Below are positions 35,005 through 44,885 of a stretch of DNA of 47,960 bases, piece by piece (positions within the stretch are counted from its first letter, which is position 1; the number at the start of each line of letters is the position of its first letter). The notes beneath the pieces were generated by a model. That model saw nothing but the letters and a program-made list of their open reading frames with translations, was not told where the DNA came from and made no database searches. The DNA is from Robiginitomaculum sp. (GTDB lineage Bacteria > Pseudomonadota > Alphaproteobacteria > Caulobacterales > Maricaulaceae), in assembly GCA_021776595.1 (NCBI GenBank), contig JAJFFP010000061.1, positions 1-47,960 of the forward strand. The letters are read 5' to 3'. The position numbers were made by a program, and so were the translations under genes.

Positions 35005-36468
35005 TCAGGATTTACGCTTTTCTTTTGCTTTTTTAACGCGGTCTTCTTCTTGCGCCAGAATGGTTTTACATTCGTCAGAGATTTCCCCTACACCTTCCAG
35101 GAATTCAGCACCCATACGTTTTTTACGGTCTGCCTGGTTTTTACACTCATCCAGTTTGACCTGAAATTTGAAGGCCGCCTGTTTACGATCTACTTCAAAC
35201 TGACCATTGATAAAACGTACCCAGCCATTAGCCGTTTTACGCGAATAAGGATATTGCGCTGCTTTTTTGAATTCCTTAATGGCTTGGACCGGGCGGTTGC
35301 GCTCATAAAGTGAATTGGCAATCAGAATATAGGCATTGCCAGGTTTTTTGATGCCTTTTTCCAGCGCTTTACGAAAAGCCTTCTCGGCCTTGTCATATTG
35401 TTCTTCTGAATAATAGGCTTCACCCAGGCGTTCATATAAACTACCGGTGGATGCAATATTTGCCGCCGCCGTCAAAACCGGGATCGCACGATCATATTCA
35501 CGGGCCTGGCGCCACATATTGGCCAGTAGTTCCAAATTCTTTCTGGACTTGGAGACCCGACCTGCATTCATTTCACGCTCAAGGATAGAAGCTCCACGAA
35601 ATGGAACTTCATAATAGCTGTAATACTGCGCCAGTGCCAGAAGCTCACGCTCACTTTTAAGCATGCCATTAAGATACATGATTTTGTTCACTTCAAAGGC
35701 TTCACGCGATTTATTGGCTTGCTGTTTCAGCGATGCGATGGCTTTCCAGACTTTTTTGTCATCCGGCCAGATAGAAACTTCCTGTTCAAGCAATTTGGCC
35801 TGTTTCCCCGGCATTTTCAATTCATGATAAATGTAGTTCAGAATATCAAAATGCTTCTTTTTCTTTGGGTTAGCTGTGCGAAATGCTGCTTCAGCATGGG
35901 GTAGTGCCTTGCGATATTCATCGGCCTGAAGCCAGGACTGCGCAATCATCAGATGAATTTTGTCATTGGCTTTACCGCCATTGCGCAACCATTTTTCAAG
36001 AATGGTCGCCCCTTTTACGTATTGTTCCTCGGCAATATAAAGCTGGCCGATATTGGGGGTCAGGCTGTCAATCTCGCCCTGATTTAGAGCCCCTGTATTG
36101 ATAGAGGCCTCCCAATCGCGGATTGTGCCCATATTATTGCCCGTGCCATATTGGGCCTGACCACGTATCTGATAGCTGATAGCGCGCTCATAAGGCGACA
36201 GCTTTGGTTTAGTAAGCAATTTTGTCAGCACCGAGATCGTGGTAGCATAATCAGGAGGTTCGGCAGAAAGGGCCTCTTGCGCCTTGATTATGGCTTCACC
36301 GGCCATTGTGCTTAGCACACGACCTTTGGTTTTTTGCTCATCATCCTTGTTGCGACGCTGCGCATCGGCAGGTCCGGCAGCGAAAACGACGGCAATCAAG
36401 ACAGCAAACACCATCAGACCTAGCTGGTGTATCCACCTGCTCTCGTCATTTAATCTCGTTCCAAACAT
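35005..36468 (-). CDS. TPR protein of the TonB/ExbBD energy-transduction locus
   Basis: This 487-residue exported protein has a signal peptide (LGLMVFAVLIAVVFAAGPADA) and tetratricopeptide repeats across residues about 60-400 (AISYQIRGQAQYGTGNNMGT, GQLYIAEEQYVKGATILEKW, LYERLGEAYYSEEQYDKAEKAFRKALEKG, AYILIANSLYERNRPVQAIKEF). The C-terminus is Lys-rich. TPR proteins of this kind end TonB-ExbB-ExbD-DUF3450 gene clusters in several proteobacteria; they are periplasmic and may link TonB to receptors, a role not proved. A terminator follows its stop. Confidence 0.87.
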   Translation of the reverse strand: MFGTRLNDESRWIHQLGLMVFAVLIAVVFAAGPADAQRRNKDDEQKTKGRVLSTMAGEAIIKAQEALSAEPPDYATTISVLTKLLTKPKLSPYERAISYQIRGQAQYGTGNNMGTIRDWEASINTGALNQGEIDSLTPNIGQLYIAEEQYVKGATILEKWLRNGGKANDKIHLMIAQSWLQADEYRKALPHAEAAFRTANPKKKKHFDILNYIYHELKMPGKQAKLLEQEVSIWPDDKKVWKAIASLKQQANKSREAFEVNKIMYLNGMLKSERELLALAQYYSYYEVPFRGASILEREMNAGRVSKSRKNLELLANMWRQAREYDRAIPVLTAAANIASTGSLYERLGEAYYSEEQYDKAEKAFRKALEKGIKKPGNAYILIANSLYERNRPVQAIKEFKKAAQYPYSRKTANGWVRFINGQFEVDRKQAAFKFQVKLDECKNQADRKKRMGAEFLEGVGEISDECKTILAQEEDRVKKAKEKRKS

Positions 36469-36539: not shown

Positions 36540-37142
36540 CTAGTCTGCCAACTGGAATTTAAATGGTGTCACCACTCCGCGCCGTGCCACGGCCTTACCA
36601 TCAACAATTTTAGGATTGTATTTCCATTTCTCAATGGCCCGCGTTGCCGCACGAACAAACATGGATGATGAGCAGGTGACACGCACATTATATGGCTTGC
36701 CGGTTGCGCTCACATCAAACTGGCCTTCGCAAGTGCCTTCACGGCCCTGCTCTGCTGCGCGGGGCGGATAGATGGGTTCAATACGAACCAGTGGTTGTGC
36801 ATCACGATCAGAGACCTGAAAGTTGATATTGCCACGGTTTAGTGAAGGGGGTTCAAAATCCGGAATAGAGCCGGAAACAGAGGCAATGCCTTCATTTGGT
36901 TGAACCGCTTTTTGTTTTTCAATGGCTGGCGGCGGGGGTGGTGGTTTTACGTCCTTGGTCCGCTCCGGCTTGACATCGCGTTGCCGCACTTCAAGCTCTT
37001 GTACTTTTGGATTAATATCGAACCGTACAGATTCTTCTTTATCGGCTAGTTTGAAGTCACCCGAAATGAAGAACCGCATCAGCAAAAAAAGCAGAATCGT
37101 AATAACTGCAGCAATTGGCAAGCTGAGAATAAAACGAGGCAT
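36540..37142 (-). CDS. TonB family protein 1
   Basis: This 200-residue protein has one N-terminal membrane anchor (FILSLPIAAVITILLFLLMRFF), a short Pro-rich region (KPPPPPPA) and a TonB C-terminal domain (PLVRIEPIYPPRAAEQGREGTCEGQFDVSATG, then ATRAIEKWKYNPKIVDGKAVARRGVVTPFKFQL). The Pro region is short compared with E. coli TonB. Two cysteines in the CTD (GTCEGQF and RVTCSSS) are shared with the second TonB and could form a disulfide. The ATG at 37142 has AGGAG six bases upstream. It is paralogous to TonB 2. Confidence 0.92.
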   Translation of the reverse strand: MPRFILSLPIAAVITILLFLLMRFFISGDFKLADKEESVRFDINPKVQELEVRQRDVKPERTKDVKPPPPPPAIEKQKAVQPNEGIASVSGSIPDFEPPSLNRGNINFQVSDRDAQPLVRIEPIYPPRAAEQGREGTCEGQFDVSATGKPYNVRVTCSSSMFVRAATRAIEKWKYNPKIVDGKAVARRGVVTPFKFQLAD

Positions 37143-37225
37143 CAAATACTCCTGTTGCAATCATGCCAACCAAAATACATTGGTGATCCAAACCTGCAGG
37201 CTGATATTCCCGCTTCCCCTGAATC

Positions 37226-37241
37226 ACCGATTTTGATCGGT
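37226..37241. promoter_or_regulatory. ACCGAT-TTTG-ATCGGT palindrome upstream of tonB 1
   Basis: A perfect six-base inverted repeat lies about 85 bases ahead of the tonB 1 start in the 295-base gap after tonB 2, and a further half-site ACCGAT is 17 bases away (37257). It could be an operator; no known regulator is assigned. The rest of the gap shows nothing recognisable. Confidence 0.35.
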
Positions 37242-37437
37242 ATTTTCCTTTACTTTACCGATTAGAATTCGCCGCGAACAGTCTTTTTTCAGCCCATATG
37301 TGCGAATCTTTGGCAATCAACCCGTGTTGCACACCTTGGCACAACAATGAGGCGATTTTGCGACATGCGCAACAACCCCTGGTGGTGCCCACTTCATACA
37401 CACGAAAAGACTGTGAACCGCTTACCACAGAGGGGGC

Positions 37438-38070
37438 TTACATCTTGAACAGAACAGGCGTCTCTACACCACGCCGAATGACGGCTTTGCCATCCACAAT
37501 CTTGGGAATATATCTCCATTTGCCAATGGCCTGGACAACAACGCCAGTAAACACTGATGAAGAACAAACAACATTGATATTCATGGGCACTCCCCTTGGG
37601 TTGACATCAAACCTTGCTTTACAGCGCCCCCCAAGGCCACGTGATAATGCCCGTGCGGGATGCACCGGCTCAATGCGCACAATCGGCTGAACATCACGAT
37701 CCATCGGCGTGAAAACATTAACAGCCTTTGCGGGTTCAGGCGGGGTAATATCCGGCAGACCAAAGGGCGCAATAGCTTCATCCGGCAGGATGGAACTTTG
37801 CTGTGCTAGGCGCGGGGGTGGTGGAGGCAGTTCCACTTTTGTCGTTCTATCCGGAAGTGTTTTTCTCTTCAGGGGCGGCAGCTCCTTCACCTCAGGATGT
37901 ATTGATGGTATGGTCATATCAACGACCGGTGCCGGGGTGAACGCCGTAGTGATCAAAGTCTTCATCAGTAAAAAAAGCGCGAACGTTACCATCGCCGCCA
38001 AAGGTAGCGTAGAAACAAACCGCCATGATGGATTAAGGCCTGAGCCATAATGCTGAAAAGTGGTTGTCAT
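37438..38070 (-). CDS. TonB family protein 2
   Basis: This 210-residue paralogue of TonB 1 has a membrane anchor (LPLAAMVTFALFLLMKTLI), a short Pro-rich stretch (VELPPPPPRL) and a TonB CTD (PIVRIEPVHPARALSRGLGGRCKARFDVNPRG, then VVQAIGKWRYIPKIVDGKAVIRRGVETPVLF). Both CTD cysteines are retained. The ATG at 38070 has GGGAGG five bases upstream. It lies 101 bases downstream of the ExbB-ExbD fusion gene in the same direction and probably works with it. Confidence 0.92.
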   Translation of the reverse strand: MTTTFQHYGSGLNPSWRFVSTLPLAAMVTFALFLLMKTLITTAFTPAPVVDMTIPSIHPEVKELPPLKRKTLPDRTTKVELPPPPPRLAQQSSILPDEAIAPFGLPDITPPEPAKAVNVFTPMDRDVQPIVRIEPVHPARALSRGLGGRCKARFDVNPRGVPMNINVVCSSSVFTGVVVQAIGKWRYIPKIVDGKAVIRRGVETPVLFKM

Positions 38071-38171
38071 ATTTGCCTCCCGCTTTTTCTGCATCAGGCG
38101 CGAACGCACATCGCAGATTATCGGGAACGAGCCTCACGCAACCATAAGGCGTATTTAAGGCAAGACCTTGC

Positions 38172-39119
38172 CTAATTGGTGCCTTCTCGCTGGATTGACC
38201 AGGCGCCACCGGCTCCTTCTACCTGCTCCACAATCCGAACAACTACCCCATGTGATGCGTCATCATCCGGGTTGATCAACACACCGGAACGGGTGTGCTC
38301 CGCGCGCAGACTGGAAATTTTGGCACCCACACGCTCAATATCTGTCAATTGTCGGTTGATATAGACCAGATTGCGATCCGTCACCTGCACCAAAATCAAC
38401 GGGTCAGGGTTTTGCTCCGCTGTTTCTTTATCGCGCGGCTGCGGAATGAGGCTGATGGTTTTTTCCTGAACAAACACAGCCGTAGCTATAAAAAAGATCA
38501 ACATGATAAATACAATATCCAGCATGGGCGTCATATCCACCTGAGCATCACCCTGGTTTTGACGACCTCGCTTTCCCTGAAGATCAGACCAGCCCGGCTC
38601 TAGCGCATTGGCAAGTCTGGTAATCACAAGACGGGAATGGCGCTCAAGACGGCGGGCGATGATCAGGCCTGAAATGGCCGCTACCATGCCTGCCATGGTG
38701 GTGATGGTGGCTCTGGAAACCCCGGCTGACATAGCCCGAATATCGGACGAACCGGTGGAGGCCATAACATCAAACACACTAATCATGCCGGTAACGGTAC
38801 CCAACAGCCCAAGCAGCGGTGATATGGCTACCAGTATGAGGATAAGGGCAATGTTTTGTTCGGCGCTTTGTCGGTTCTGTGAAATTAACTGAGTTCTTAT
38901 CTTCTGAGCATACCAACTAATATGGTCCTCCCGACTCTGCCATAACTGCCTAGTTTTCCTGGCCTCGTTTTTTTGTGAAAAAAAGAAATAGGCCATACGC
39001 TCAACAATGAGTGCCCACATCAAAAAGGTGGTGAACAGGATAATCGTCAGGACCGGACCGCCCATCTCCAGAAATGCCTGCAAATCCTGCACGGCTCTAA
39101 ATGGATTTAACGCCTTCAC
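38172..39119 (-). CDS. Single-chain ExbB-ExbD fusion protein
   Basis: This is a 315-residue protein that carries a complete ExbB/TolQ module (residues about 1-178: FLEMGGPVLTIILFTTFLMW, then AISPLLGLLGTVTGMISVFD and MSAGVSRATITTMAGMVAAISGLI), a linker of about 20 polar residues, and a full ExbD module (VDMTPMLDIVFIMLIFFIATAVF, with the proton-binding Asp, then a periplasmic domain to ASHGVVVRIVEQVEG). Each half matches the separate exbB at 40159 and exbD at 39739 closely, and the summed length equals theirs. ExbB ends and ExbD begins in the cytoplasm, so the fusion is topologically possible. It would force 1:1 stoichiometry, whereas known complexes are 5:2. The start is a GTG with GGGGG upstream. 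Confidence 0.93.
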   Translation of the reverse strand: MKALNPFRAVQDLQAFLEMGGPVLTIILFTTFLMWALIVERMAYFFFSQKNEARKTRQLWQSREDHISWYAQKIRTQLISQNRQSAEQNIALILILVAISPLLGLLGTVTGMISVFDVMASTGSSDIRAMSAGVSRATITTMAGMVAAISGLIIARRLERHSRLVITRLANALEPGWSDLQGKRGRQNQGDAQVDMTPMLDIVFIMLIFFIATAVFVQEKTISLIPQPRDKETAEQNPDPLILVQVTDRNLVYINRQLTDIERVGAKISSLRAEHTRSGVLINPDDDASHGVVVRIVEQVEGAGGAWSIQREGTN

Positions 39120-39221
39120 AACCGCCCCCGCTATGGTTCAACAGGAATTGCAAACAATATAGGCGTAAAAATATCAATCAGAGATCGCTGCGACTATCCG
39201 TCGCTAGGCCCTAACCTGAGC

Positions 39222-39259
39222 CATAAAGAAAACGGCCACCCCCGTAAAAGGGATGGCCG
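39222..39259 (-). terminator. Rho-independent terminator after the core exb operon
   Basis: The stem CGGCCATCCC/GGGGGTGGCCG with minor bulges (39233-39259) is followed on the minus strand by TTTTCTTT. It lies 30 bases past the exbD-2 stop, so DUF3450-exbB-exbB-exbD-exbD form one transcript and the fusion/tonB part another. Confidence 0.8.
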
Positions 39260-39289
39260 CTGATCTGCAATATTGTGACGATCCGGAAA

Positions 39290-39691
39290 TTAACGTTTCT
39301 CGATGGAAACTTTCACTGGAATACCCAGAGCAAGGAAAATATCCTGAATATCCAGAACCGTGCCAATTTTGGCCAATTGATCACCCTGAATAACGCCTTC
39401 GGCTTTGGGATTTTCCGCTTTCATTTTTTCAAGCGCGGCGCTCACCCCGACTTTGGGTACAATTTTCTTGTTGATCCAGATCTGGTTCTGGTTATCTACC
39501 GCCACCATGATGGAGGGTTTTTCCGGGGATACTTCCGGACCCCACAAGGGTTTATTCACATCAACCCCAGGCTCTTTGACGAAAACGGCCGTAACGATAA
39601 AGAAGATAAGCAGAATAAACACAACGTCCAGCATGGGCGTCATATCCATTTCCACATCGTCTGCCTTACTTACTCCGCGTGATCTTGCCAT
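39290..39691 (-). CDS. ExbD/TolR family protein 2
   Basis: This 133-residue protein has a basic N-terminus (MARSRGVSKADDVEMDM), one membrane helix with the conserved Asp (TPMLDVVFILLIFFIVTAVF) and a periplasmic domain rich in Lys/Glu (IWINKKIVPKVGVSAALEKMKAEN). The ATG at 39691 with GGAG upstream is used rather than 39718. It is more diverged from the fusion's ExbD half than exbD-1 is. It is the last gene before the terminator. Confidence 0.93.
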   Translation of the reverse strand: MARSRGVSKADDVEMDMTPMLDVVFILLIFFIVTAVFVKEPGVDVNKPLWGPEVSPEKPSIMVAVDNQNQIWINKKIVPKVGVSAALEKMKAENPKAEGVIQGDQLAKIGTVLDIQDIFLALGIPVKVSIEKR

Positions 39692-39738
39692 CACTACACT
39701 CCGCTTAACTCGTTTCAATGCGGCTCAAAGAGCCTGTT

Positions 39739-40149
39739 TTAGGCACCGTCTGCCTGACGCTGAATCATGGTCGGCGCACCGGTATTCTTGGCGGCGTCAA
39801 ATACGGTAATCACCACCCCGTGGCTGGCTTCGTCATCTGGTACTATCAGGATGGCACTGTCGCCCTTGTCAGCACGAAAACGCTCAATGGCCGGGCCAAC
39901 ACGGCGCAGGTCCGTTAGCTGATCATTTACAAAGATCACATCCCGGTCGTTGATTTGAATCAAAATCACCGGATTGGATTTTTCAGGTTCGTTGTCAGAA
40001 GGCGGTGGCGGCACCAGACTAACGGAGCGCTCCTGCACAAAGACTGCGGTGACGATGAAAAAGATCAGGAGGATAAAGACAATATCCAGCATCGGAGTCA
40101 TATCGACTTCGACTTCTTCCTGTTCGCGATGGCGTCCACCTCTACGCAT
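39739..40149 (-). CDS. ExbD/TolR family protein 1
   Basis: This 136-residue protein has a charged N-terminus, a membrane helix with the proton-carrying Asp (VDMTPMLDIVFILLIFFIVTAVF) and a periplasmic domain (VILIQINDRDVIFVNDQLTDLRRVG, PDDEASHGVVITVFDAAK). It lies nine bases after the exbB stop. Its sequence is the closest relative in the window to the ExbD half of the fusion. It is part of the proton channel that powers TonB. Confidence 0.94.
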   Translation of the reverse strand: MRRGGRHREQEEVEVDMTPMLDIVFILLIFFIVTAVFVQERSVSLVPPPPSDNEPEKSNPVILIQINDRDVIFVNDQLTDLRRVGPAIERFRADKGDSAILIVPDDEASHGVVITVFDAAKNTGAPTMIQRQADGA

Positions 40150-40158
40150 AAGCCGGCC

Positions 40159-40692
40159 CTACCCTAAGTCCATGGCGTCAGCGACGGATTGTGTAGCCCG
40201 CAGGCCCCGCCGCTCAAGCCGGTTTGAAAAAATCAGCCCGGAAAGCGCTGCTACCATGCCTGCCATGGTCGGAATGGTGGCTTTGGATACCCCCGCCGAC
40301 ATGGCCCGCACATTGGACGAACCGGTGGCCGCCATGACATCAAAAACCTCGATCATACCGGTCACCGTGCCCAGAAGACCCAGCAAGGGTGCAATCGCAA
40401 CCAGGGTTTTGATCAGCCTGATATTCTGTTCGGTTTTTTGCCGAACCTCAGAGATCAATTGCTCGCGAATGGCATGGGCATACCAGGACTTATGATCGTC
40501 CCGTGCCGCCCACTTATTCACAGCCTTTTTCACAATACGACCATGAGCAAACTGGTAATAGGCCATTCTTTCGATAATAAACGCCCACATAAAGAAGGTG
40601 GCGACCATGATCAGCAGGAGAACATTCCCGCCCATCTCCAGAAACTGCTGGAGATTATCCAAAGCCGTCCCAGGGTTTAGCCAGACTGGCAT
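40159..40692 (-). CDS. MotA/TolQ/ExbB proton channel protein (short)
   Basis: This 177-residue protein has three membrane helices: NVLLLIMVATFFMWAFIIERM, then the conserved IAPLLGLLGTVTGMIEVFDVM, and ATIPTMAGMVAALSGLIFSNRLE. The cytoplasmic loop (FAHGRIVKKAVNKWAARDDHKSWYAHAIREQL) is typical of ExbB2-like proteins. AAGGA lies upstream of the ATG. It forms a unit with exbD-1 downstream, and this pair is the likely source of the fusion gene. Confidence 0.95.
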   Translation of the reverse strand: MPVWLNPGTALDNLQQFLEMGGNVLLLIMVATFFMWAFIIERMAYYQFAHGRIVKKAVNKWAARDDHKSWYAHAIREQLISEVRQKTEQNIRLIKTLVAIAPLLGLLGTVTGMIEVFDVMAATGSSNVRAMSAGVSKATIPTMAGMVAALSGLIFSNRLERRGLRATQSVADAMDLG

Positions 40693-40738: not shown

Positions 40739-42112
40739 TTATTTGGACCGGGCTTCAGCATTTGCTGCAACCATACCAGCGGCCTGTTCTTCCAAAACCT
40801 GTTGCAAAGACCGGCTCGCGGACGAGCAGAAGCTGTGCAACAGCAGAAGGGGAATAGCTGACAACAGACCCAGAACCGTGGTCACCAGAGCAAAAGAGAT
40901 ACCATCAGCCATCAATTGCGGATCACCGGCACCAAACAGGGTAATCGCCTGGAAGGTTTTGATCATACCAATAACCGTGCCCAACAGGCCCATAAGTGGT
41001 GAAACGGCCGCCAACACCTTAATCAGGCTCAGGCCAAACTCAAGTTTGCCGGTCTCTTTGAGGATAGCATCATCAAGTTTCAGCTCAATGGTTTCTATAT
41101 CCTTGTCCTTGGCACTTTCATAAGCAGCCATGATACGGCCAAGCGGATTGCCCTTGCCAGGTTTCGAGCGACGCATCTGTGCGCGCACTGCCATGGACGT
41201 CATGAACAGGGCAAACAGACGCCACACACCGATAAAGATACCAATGGCGGCCATGACACTCACCGCATAACCAATATTACCACCAGCGTGATAGCGCTCC
41301 ATAATGGTCGGGGTGCGAACCACCAGACCAAGCAGAACACCACGGGTTGGGTCAACCGGGCCTTTTACGATTTTATCCGGGCTGGCATTACTGACATTAC
41401 GAGCCAGGCCGCGCAAACGACCGGAAGGCTGGCGGGCCAGCATACCCAGTTCACCATCTTCCACTTTAAGGAAGCGGGCATCTTTGGCCAACCATGAGGT
41501 AAACGGTCCAACACGGGTAACATCAACAGGTCCACCATCATTCACATCAGGAATTGAACCACTATAGGTAACTACTTCGCCCTGGGCCTTGGCTTCTTGC
41601 AAGATGGTTTTGTAAATGTTTTCCAACTCGGAAACTTCAGGCAGTTTGGAACTGTTGGCAACTTCACCAAGTTCATCACCACGATTTGGGTATTGGCCTG
41701 AAATGAAAGACACATCAACAATGGCCTTGATTTCACCGGCTGCCTGACGGGCAGCACCAAACAATTCACCAAAAGAGCCTTGTGCCACACGAAGGTCTTC
41801 GTCGAGCTTCAGGACCAGGGCTTTATTGGCATCCAGCTTGGAATTATTGCGAGACTCTTCTGCGCGTAATGCCCGTAGTTCGGACTTTGCCTTATTGAGC
41901 AAACGCTGTTGCTGGGCTTTCTTTTGAATAAACTCCTGCACCCGGCGTTGTGCCTCGGCATTTGCCTCACGGCTGTCGCGGCCAACACGGGCGATCAGTT
42001 CATCAATGGACTTGACCGGCGTCGCTTGTGCGAACGCTGGTGCAGTGGGAACGATCAGGGTTGCTGCGCTTAACGCGACGGCACCCAGAAGCGATTTCAT
42101 ATTGAATTTCAT
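40739..42112 (-). CDS. MotA/TolQ/ExbB proton channel protein with long periplasmic N-terminal extension
   Basis: This is a 457-residue protein. A signal peptide (LLGAVALSAATLIVPTAPAFA) is followed by a 230-residue periplasmic coiled-coil region (RRVQEFIQKKAQQQRLLNKAKSELRALRAEESRNNSKLDANKAL). The ExbB channel domain starts at about residue 260 (GGNIGYAVSVMAAIGIFIGVW, AAVSPLMGLLGTVIGMIKTFQAI, LVTTVLGLLSAIPLLLLHSF). Such extended ExbB proteins co-occur with DUF3450 proteins, which are also coiled coils and could contact this extension. ATG codons at 42112 and 42100 are both possible. Confidence 0.92.
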   Translation of the reverse strand: MKFNMKSLLGAVALSAATLIVPTAPAFAQATPVKSIDELIARVGRDSREANAEAQRRVQEFIQKKAQQQRLLNKAKSELRALRAEESRNNSKLDANKALVLKLDEDLRVAQGSFGELFGAARQAAGEIKAIVDVSFISGQYPNRGDELGEVANSSKLPEVSELENIYKTILQEAKAQGEVVTYSGSIPDVNDGGPVDVTRVGPFTSWLAKDARFLKVEDGELGMLARQPSGRLRGLARNVSNASPDKIVKGPVDPTRGVLLGLVVRTPTIMERYHAGGNIGYAVSVMAAIGIFIGVWRLFALFMTSMAVRAQMRRSKPGKGNPLGRIMAAYESAKDKDIETIELKLDDAILKETGKLEFGLSLIKVLAAVSPLMGLLGTVIGMIKTFQAITLFGAGDPQLMADGISFALVTTVLGLLSAIPLLLLHSFCSSASRSLQQVLEEQAAGMVAANAEARSK

Positions 42113-42134
42113 TGCTTTTCTCGCCTCTCTAGCC

Positions 42135-42905
42135 TTATTGCACTTTTGTTGCGCCAGGCAACGGTGCGGGGAATACTTCAGGGGTTTTCTGCTCAAGGGC
42201 AATCCGCGTAGCAGACTGAACATCCAGCTTAAAGCTGTCAGGCAAGTCTTCGTAAGCCCCCTTGGCTTTATTATAAATGTGCATTTTGTGCTGACCATCG
42301 GTATAGACCAGCGCCACACGGCCTACACGCAGGAATTCAACCTTGCGAGGTTCACCATCTACCAGCACGTTTTCAGTGTAAGAAGTGGTCTGGTTGCCGT
42401 AAGAAAGTTCGATCTGATAGGCATTCATGATCTGCCGGTAAAGCTCAGCCGGAGACTGGTTGGGATCACCAGCCAGTTCTTTCAGTTTAGTGATACGCGC
42501 GTCACGCTCTTCCATCTGAAATGGCACGTCACTGGCAACAAAAGCCTCAAGTGACCCGATCATACGCAGCATCATCGGCAGCAATTGCGCCTGGATGTCA
42601 CCAACGCGATCGATTTGACTGCGTAAAGACTCAACTTCATTTTGCTGCGATTTAAGGAAAATCTTCTGCTGCTCAACATTTAGTGCAACGGTATCTTTCT
42701 CCTGCAGCGCCGCGCGATACTCTCGCACCACATCACCAACCTGATCATCAATGCGATCTATGCGCGCTTGCGCCGCCGCACCGGAGGCGGTTGAACGCTC
42801 TGCCGTTTTAATCGCAGATGAAAGCTGCGCTTGAGCCGCACCACCAAATGCTGCGACTGCCAGAGCCGCGACACTGATCCGCGTCATTAATTTCAACTTC
42901 GTCAT
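42135..42905 (-). CDS. DUF3450 family periplasmic coiled-coil protein
   Basis: This 256-residue protein has a signal peptide (MTRISVAALAVAAFGGAAQA) and then a long coiled coil (RIDRIDDQVGDVVREYRAALQEKDTVALNVEQQK). The DUF3450 core (VPFQMEERDARITKLKELAGDPNQSPAELYRQIMNAYQIELSYG and FLRVGRVALVYTDGQ) follows. It is the first gene of the TonB/ExbBD locus. Members are exported and always linked to extended ExbB; they probably belong to the complex, but their mechanism is unknown. The ATG at 42905 (GGAG seven bases upstream) is chosen over 42917. Confidence 0.93.
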   Translation of the reverse strand: MTKLKLMTRISVAALAVAAFGGAAQAQLSSAIKTAERSTASGAAAQARIDRIDDQVGDVVREYRAALQEKDTVALNVEQQKIFLKSQQNEVESLRSQIDRVGDIQAQLLPMMLRMIGSLEAFVASDVPFQMEERDARITKLKELAGDPNQSPAELYRQIMNAYQIELSYGNQTTSYTENVLVDGEPRKVEFLRVGRVALVYTDGQHKMHIYNKAKGAYEDLPDSFKLDVQSATRIALEQKTPEVFPAPLPGATKVQ

Positions 42906-43278
42906 ACCATGCTCCACAAAAGGACCCTGCCGCGACCAGACGAAACAGGCGCGCCGAAAAATCTAAAAAAAAATGCCTGACAAAACTGTCAACCACCCCG
43001 CAAATCACGCATAAGCGCATATCGCCGTTTGGCGAAAAGTTGGAAGAGTTCGCGCTGTATCACACAGCGGCTCCCCCTTCAGCCTGCAGCGGTTACTCCG
43101 CCGTCTCTGGCAATGCGGCGGTTGTTCCACCGACGTATCCGGCACGGTATAAAAACCTTTTCATGCCCCTATTGTCGCAAACGCTAACACTGATCTGTGT
43201 CAGCAATCAATACTGTGTATGCAAGAATTTCACATGTTGGCCAGGCAATGTCCAAAAAATCGCTTGTTAAGGGAAATA
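42906..43278. other. Intergenic region upstream of the exb locus
   Basis: These 373 bases separate DUF3450 from tRNA-Gln. The stretch must contain the promoter of the exb operon. A short TCGCC-GTT-TGGCGA hairpin lies near 43022-43036. No clear ORF, RNA gene or known operator was seen. Confidence 0.5.
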
Positions 43279-43353
<75 letters not shown>

Positions 43354-44807: not shown

Positions 44808-44885
44808 CGGAGTATAGCTCAGCCTGGTTAGAGTACCGTCTTCGGAAGGCGGGGGTCGCAAGTTCAAATCTTGCTACTCCGACCA
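44808..44885 (+). tRNA. tRNA-Pro (anticodon CGG)
   Basis: The cloverleaf has acceptor CGGAGTA/TACTCCG, D arm GCTC/GAGT, anticodon stem CCGTC/GGCGG around the loop TTCGGAA (anticodon CGG), and T arm GCAAG-TTCAAAT-CTTGC. The discriminator A and CCA are encoded. C1 at the 5' end is usual for tRNA-Pro. It is divergent from the HI0933 gene. Confidence 0.95.

Follow-up and report, generated by a model that had tools for sequence, protein, structure and literature searches.

An open reading frame joining ExbB and ExbD modules in a TonB2-type operon of Robiginitomaculum

Can the ring subunit and the axle subunit of a Ton motor be one polypeptide? The question is raised by a stretch of 47,960 nucleotides (hereafter the window) in which one open reading frame encodes an ExbB module followed by an ExbD module. 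An earlier note on this DNA had proposed a single-chain fusion with a polar linker in a TonB energising system, in which a covalent 1:1 link would force a different assembly, mixed rings with a free ExbB or cleavage. That reading is partly supported by the analysis reported here. The note was silent on the full set of free genes that accompanies the fusion and makes it an additional copy, on the extra TonB and on the patchiness of the fusion within one genus.

The fused frame and its operon

The 315-residue frame on the minus strand (38172-39119) contains no internal stop. One chain matched the Pfam family MotA_ExbB at residues 63-169 (E 5.9e-22, 78.2 bits versus a cut-off of 22.9) and ExbD at residues 189-305 (E 3.8e-25, 88.9 bits versus a cut-off of 25.4), so that it passes the curated profile cut-offs of both PF01618 (MotA/TolQ/ExbB) and PF02472 (ExbD/TolR). 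T108 and T141 fall in the pairwise alignment columns of Escherichia coli ExbB T148 and T181, while D201 is, by motif, what we take to be the equivalent of E. coli ExbD D25; all three residues are invariant in a 41-row alignment. Between LEP and VDMTPM lies a linker of 18 residues, 83% of which are polar, charged or glycine. Both modules with their key residues in a single frame, and the polar linker between them, are thus as the earlier note described them. Against the NCBIfam equivalog models for ExbB, TolQ, ExbD and TolR the fusion scored below all cut-offs (best scores: TolQ, 43 versus 221 bits; TolR, 41.6 versus 127.3; exbB2, 39.2 versus 135.35), as did the free ExbB and ExbD copies, and a PHROGs search returned no match.

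We used AlphaFold2 to generate a single-chain model of the fusion (mean pLDDT 75, pTM 0.48), which contains helices at residues 22-61, 90-122, 127-172 and 197-218 and a folded periplasmic domain, with pLDDT below 50 at residues 179-181, 183-194, 218-237 and 313-315; given the pTM of 0.48, the relative placement of the two modules in it is untrustworthy. The top Foldseek match was E. coli ExbB (5sv0_G, E 3e-5, TM-score by target 0.47), with the query covered over the ExbB part only, and ExbD periplasmic domains were also matched (8vgd_B, TM-score by target 0.83, E 0.003). As modelled, both modules resemble the solved ExbB and ExbD folds.

Table 1 Features of the operon and of the fusion gene, in positions of the window
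Feature	Position	Strand	Remarks
DUF3450 protein (TtpB-like)	42135..42917	-	Profile match
TtpC-like MotA_ExbB protein	40739..42319	-	Longest frame; start probably near 42112, judged from relatives of 451-469 aa
Free ExbB	40159..40692	-	Profile match
Free ExbD	39739..40149	-	Profile match
Second ExbD	39290..39718	-	Start probably 39691 (133 aa, as in several relatives)
Terminator-like hairpin, second ExbD to fusion	39231..39261	-	13 pairs; consensus match only
ExbB-ExbD fusion gene	38172..39119	-	315 aa, GTG start
ExbB module	38604..39119	-	Residues 1-172; T108, T141; model helices 6-20, 22-61, 69-87, 90-122, 127-172
LEP and linker	38541..38603	-	Residues 173-193; letters variable among the four fusions, model confidence low
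ExbD module	38175..38540	-	Residues 194-315; TM helix 197-218 with D201, periplasmic domain
Extra TonB gene (TonB')	37438..38109	-	TonB_C match; directly downstream of fusion
Operon TonB	36540..37160	-	Profile match, locus comparison
TPR protein	35005..36468	-	Likened to Vibrio TtpD by position only

On the minus strand, the genes run DUF3450, TtpC-like, ExbB, ExbD, second ExbD, fusion, TonB', TonB and TPR (Table 1). The free ExbB to which the earlier note pointed, at 40159-40692, is a real gene with a Pfam match. Judged by gene order, the locus is a TonB2-type Ton operon with additions: DUF3450, TtpC-like, ExbB, ExbD, TonB and a last gene (the TPR protein here) recall the Vibrio order ttpB2-ttpC2-exbB2-exbD2-tonB2-ttpD2 given in excerpts of PMC6957404, whereas the second ExbD, the fusion, the extra TonB and the alphaproteobacterial relatives set it apart.

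We compared 21 loci including the window, drawn from 17 of the 18 genus genomes and 4 genomes of other genera; G011, whose contig is 4 kb, was excluded. In 4 of the loci, the fusion and an extra TonB stand between the second ExbD and TonB. All four retain the free ExbB, the free ExbD and the second ExbD, and in each the extra TonB follows the fusion. An extra TonB occupies the same place without a fusion in G017, a second TonB lies downstream of the TPR gene in G013 and G008, and a further TonB-like gene is found nearby in G029 and G025. The second ExbD (39290-39718) follows exbB-exbD across the genus and in the other family members compared, and therefore gives these operons two different axle proteins even where the fusion is absent.

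In the genome itself, the ExbD family matched four times and the MotA_ExbB family five times, each of them three times within this operon. Those outside it are one of each on contig C9, presumably TolR and TolQ, and one MotA_ExbB match on contig C23, which we take to be flagellar MotA. Plug-domain and TonB_C matches numbered 18 and 5, respectively, the Plug-domain matches giving context for a putative role of the system in TonB-dependent uptake. Elsewhere in the window lie tRNA-Gln (43279-43353) and tRNA-Pro (44808-44885), and some of the ORFs listed across them are likely spurious.

Conservation and origin of the fusion

Of the 18 genus genomes, four carry the fused frame, all of them at one locus (G000, G001, G003 and G009). 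L035, a Robiginitomaculum sp. MAG and the closest named relative, shares its fused frame with G009, and the two were counted as one genome; Robiginitomaculum is placed in the Maricaulales (Alphaproteobacteria). These carriers are four related water bacteria. Among 61 genomes of the genus, family and order, an uninterrupted fused frame occurred in 4, all from the genus, and a family set of 137 genomes returned the same 4. The four proteins share 60-70% identity pairwise and align end to end, with their start codons (GTG, TTG, TTG and ATG) in one column. A missed stop or a frameshift between the modules, on which the earlier note had staked its reading, is ruled out by the same open frame in the three other genomes, and an assembly error is excluded because the frame recurs at one locus in four genomes whose proteins differ to this extent.

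Pairwise dN/dS across the four fusions was 0.07-0.21, figures that are rough because dS is saturated. Mismatch rates at codon positions 1/2/3 were 0.29/0.20/0.59 in the ExbB part, 0.08/0.02/0.50 in the ExbD helix, 0.28/0.18/0.60 in the ExbD periplasmic part and 0.52/0.47/0.63 in the tail and linker. Judged from these substitution patterns, the fusion is kept by purifying selection in the four genomes, while in the linker the letters appear nearly free and the frame is open in all four; around it, only LEP and the VDMTPM start of the helix are common to the four. Modules, key residues, locus, conservation and selection together support the claim that ExbB and ExbD are truly joined in one chain here, as part of a system that energises Ton.

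Separate production of ExbD from an internal start is unlikely as a rule, because the candidate codons are not shared by the four fusions. Near the ExbD helix, the window offers only GTG 194, ATG 196 and ATG 199, and G001 and G009 have no ATG, GTG or TTG from LEP to M196. G003 is the exception, with two additional in-frame ATG codons in the linker (183 and 187) that could start a separate ExbD.

Examination of 153 loci and the window revealed no fusion besides the four. We also searched overlapping samples of wider taxa, in which the best few candidates per genome were scored and matches under a set E-value listed. Among the matches listed, a fused frame occurred only in G000 and G003 in the order sample (398 genomes), only in G000 in the class (385 genomes) and phylum (398 genomes) samples, and in none of those from the class of G754 (369 genomes). 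Long-frame matches in G644, G864, G1026 and G1059 proved on inspection to be separate genes. The same was true of the two one-piece plasmid matches inspected, from Tritonibacter (weak) and Pseudoalteromonas (strong), in a search that covered 30 of 64 records; three of the remaining one-piece matches were without annotation. No convincing fusion remnant was found in the gaps between the second ExbD and TonB of relatives, where the best tblastn match (E 0.061) paired the window's TonB' with the reverse strand of the G017 gap. Phrase searches of open-licence PMC text found no paper on a natural ring-axle fusion; excerpts of PMC12905483, PMC9389320, PMC6778125 and PMC12215075 carry no mention of one, and a word search of PMC13367063 turned up none.

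On the basis of sequence comparison, the fusion is an additional exbB-exbD pair that has diverged from the intact free copies next to it. In the window, it shares 62% identity with the free pair in the ExbB halves and 50% in the ExbD halves. Identical positions number 28/47 in the TM1 region, 19/41 in the cytoplasmic loop, 58/72 in TM2-TM3, 5/33 in the tail and linker, 24/26 in the ExbD helix and 37/95 in the periplasmic part. All 37 free rows have a proline at position 140, next to T141, where all four fusions have a threonine.

In many relatives, exbB and exbD lie in one frame with a stop between them. For 37 free pairs chosen for this shared frame, with a junction measurable in 35, the motifs of TM3 and of the ExbD helix lay 51-59 residues apart (35/37), compared with 52-53 in the four fusions, and the column of the ExbD start methionine held M in 34/37 free rows and 0/4 fusions. 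The fusion would have arisen when an in-frame exbB-exbD pair was duplicated and the copy then lost its exbB stop and its exbD start and little else; the shared frame and the near-equal junction length are the grounds on which such a loss explains it.

In a tree of joined ExbB and ExbD sequences, all fusions fall into a single clade (100/100) next to the 16 free genus pairs used (95/97), the depth of the clade being uncertain because of long branches. On the tree of the other operon genes, the fusion carriers are scattered and 4 changes are needed, a pattern that would fit a single gain followed by several losses, or transfer between members of the genus. Duplication within the subclade that bears the fusion (p-AU 0.039) and the G000 and G003 pairing expected from the operon tree (p-AU 0.042) were each weakly rejected; as both rejections are weak, cassette transfer between species may have taken place.

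The extra TonB has a history of its own. Upstream of TonB' in G009, 137 bases show 88% identity to the stretch before TonB, and the tree pairs the two TonB proteins (93/79); as far as these similarities tell, TonB' (L131:5121-5789) arose by recent tandem copying of the TonB of this genome together with its upstream stretch. A second TonB recurs in this neighbourhood but TonB' is not one lineage, which weakens the case for a fixed partnership with the fusion.

The stretch upstream of TonB is alike in much of the genus and also matches the sequence between TonB' and TonB in the fusion genomes. A block of ~25 bases before TonB (37161-37437) is almost unchanged in many genus members, with or without the fusion, and is found in the same gap in L132, L133, L139, L140 and L143; it may be a promoter or a regulator site. 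The leaders of the four fusions (window 39120-39230, L129, L130 and L131) share a short candidate block around GTCGCA, which reads GCCGCA in G009; the comparison covers these four sequences only. The hairpin between the second ExbD and the fusion is weak evidence alone, because the terminator scan found 14 sites where 10.8 were expected. A fold scan detected hairpins with T-rich tails soon after the second ExbD in G003, G009 and several relatives lacking the fusion, and no convincing hairpin at that place in G001. A consensus promoter scan found 9 sites against 8.3 expected, none above chance.

Assembly and movement of a tethered motor

In E. coli, five ExbB subunits enclose two ExbD helices packed tightly in the pore (PMC6778125), and a form with six ExbB and three ExbD has been reported (PMC5903867). 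According to excerpts of PMC6778125 and PMC12215075, the ExbD N-terminus is cytoplasmic and sits in the cytoplasmic cavity of ExbB, in agreement with the topology argument of the earlier note. The fusion resembles this 5:2 motor in its modules, its pore threonines and the aspartate of the ExbD helix; it differs in being one chain rather than separate chains and in its third helix. E. coli TM3 is kinked at P190 (excerpts of PMC12215075). The P190 column holds S150 in the fusion and position 140 is threonine, so that the fused TM3 lacks both prolines. With MotAB, TolQR, GldLM and ZorAB, the fusion shares PF01618, a one-helix partner and a presumed proton-driven movement (in part from PMC12905483 and PMC9389320). 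In those systems ring and axle are separate chains, whereas the fusion is one open frame in all four genomes.

Because the ExbD N-terminus sits in the ExbB cavity, the linker must enter it. An extended chain spans ~3.5 angstrom per residue. By this geometry, the 24 residues between the model helices at 172 and 197 could reach at most ~80 angstrom, which would be enough for the pore and perhaps one turn and not for continuous rotation.

We consider it an even call that the fusion is an auxiliary subunit, made whole, that forms mixed rings with free ExbB and a limited-turn motor for TonB'. The intact chain, its assembly, its partner and its movement are all matters that we infer. The junction would lie in the cytoplasm, one or two fused copies would join free ExbB in an otherwise ordinary ring, and the tethered ExbD helices would fill the two-helix pore. 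The resulting variant motor, whose expression would be separate, at least in part, from that of the main operon, would drive the neighbouring TonB'. With the linker in the cytoplasmic cavity, it could rock or make roughly one turn, without continuous rotation of ring against axle. Mixed rings are favoured because the linker is too short for continuous rotation and rotation is the preferred Ton model. The fusion is close to its own free pair in TM2-TM3 (58/72) and in the ExbD helix (24/26), and a free ExbB and an extra TonB stand in all four fusion loci. Several observations count against this reading. The loop (19/41) and periplasmic part (37/95) have diverged, which may mean that the fusion does not mix with free ExbB, and proline 140 is lost in every fusion. 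The TonB' of G009 was recently copied from the TonB of the same genome, the fusion is absent from 14 of 18 genus genomes, the G003 linker codons could start a separate ExbD, and the fusion scores below the NCBIfam equivalog cut-offs, although the free copies do so too.

Cleavage is an unlikely alternative, in which a protease would cut the disordered linker in the cytoplasm to give ordinary ExbB and ExbD, the fusion serving only to couple their synthesis. The linker looks exposed to cutting, with pLDDT below 50 at residues 183-194 and letters barely conserved, and cleavage would release ring from axle; against this, the four linkers share no conserved motif resembling a cut site and a 5:2 ring does not need equal synthesis.

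It is quite improbable that five fused chains build a homomeric ring whose pore takes up two ExbD helices while three are displaced, or that the fused chains build a ring of another size. The 62% identity between the fused ExbB half and free ExbB is what a self-assembling paralogue might show, and the six-ExbB, three-ExbD form reported for E. coli (PMC5903867) speaks for this reading as well. Since five ExbB surround two ExbD helices, however, three helices would be too many: two are already tight in the pentamer pore (excerpts of PMC6778125), the surplus three, each with a buried aspartate, would presumably be costly, and free ExbB is kept in all four fusion loci.

We think it about as improbable that the fused subunit acts as a brake, tying ring to axle within a free-ExbB ring so that it stops or limits the motor and regulates rather than energises it. 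A tether would block the ring rotation preferred in excerpts of PMC12905483, and the four fusions keep the pore residues while losing proline 140, but a pure brake would not need the invariant T108, T141 and D201, and in all four loci the gene after the fusion is an extra TonB. Sequencing or assembly error, or a decaying pseudogene, has a negligible chance of explaining the frame: the genome is a draft of 95 contigs and one wrong base could fuse the stop-separated, in-frame genes of many relatives, but the recurrence of the frame under purifying selection at 60-70% identity refutes this for the genus, and the adjoining free pair on the same contig has its stop.

Bearing on the rotary model

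The tether, which the earlier note weighed for stoichiometry, matters no less for the rotary mechanism. A 2026 review prefers rotation of the ring around the axle, and excerpts of it state that no in vitro activity test validates the precise mechanism for either Ton or Tol-Pal (PMC12905483). A covalent tether between ring and axle conflicts with continuous rotation, which makes the fusion a natural test of the rotary model. Tentatively, and as a possibility that we would put well short of even, the uncut fusion is a working subunit, its ring and axle tied by ~20 residues, that serves its own TonB and cannot turn continuously: it would make a Ton motor that rocks or turns to a limited extent, or would act in mixed rings as a built-in limiter of turning. 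Were this reading true, Ton energy transfer would need no continuous rotation.

If the fusion works uncut, continuous rotation is not required; if cutting or dilution with free ExbB is needed, rotation would be supported and the number of tethered subunits tolerated per ring would be revealed. In the usual view of Ton, Tol and stator motors, a ring of five subunits turns around an axle of two helices, and a tether kept by selection would make that mechanism testable.
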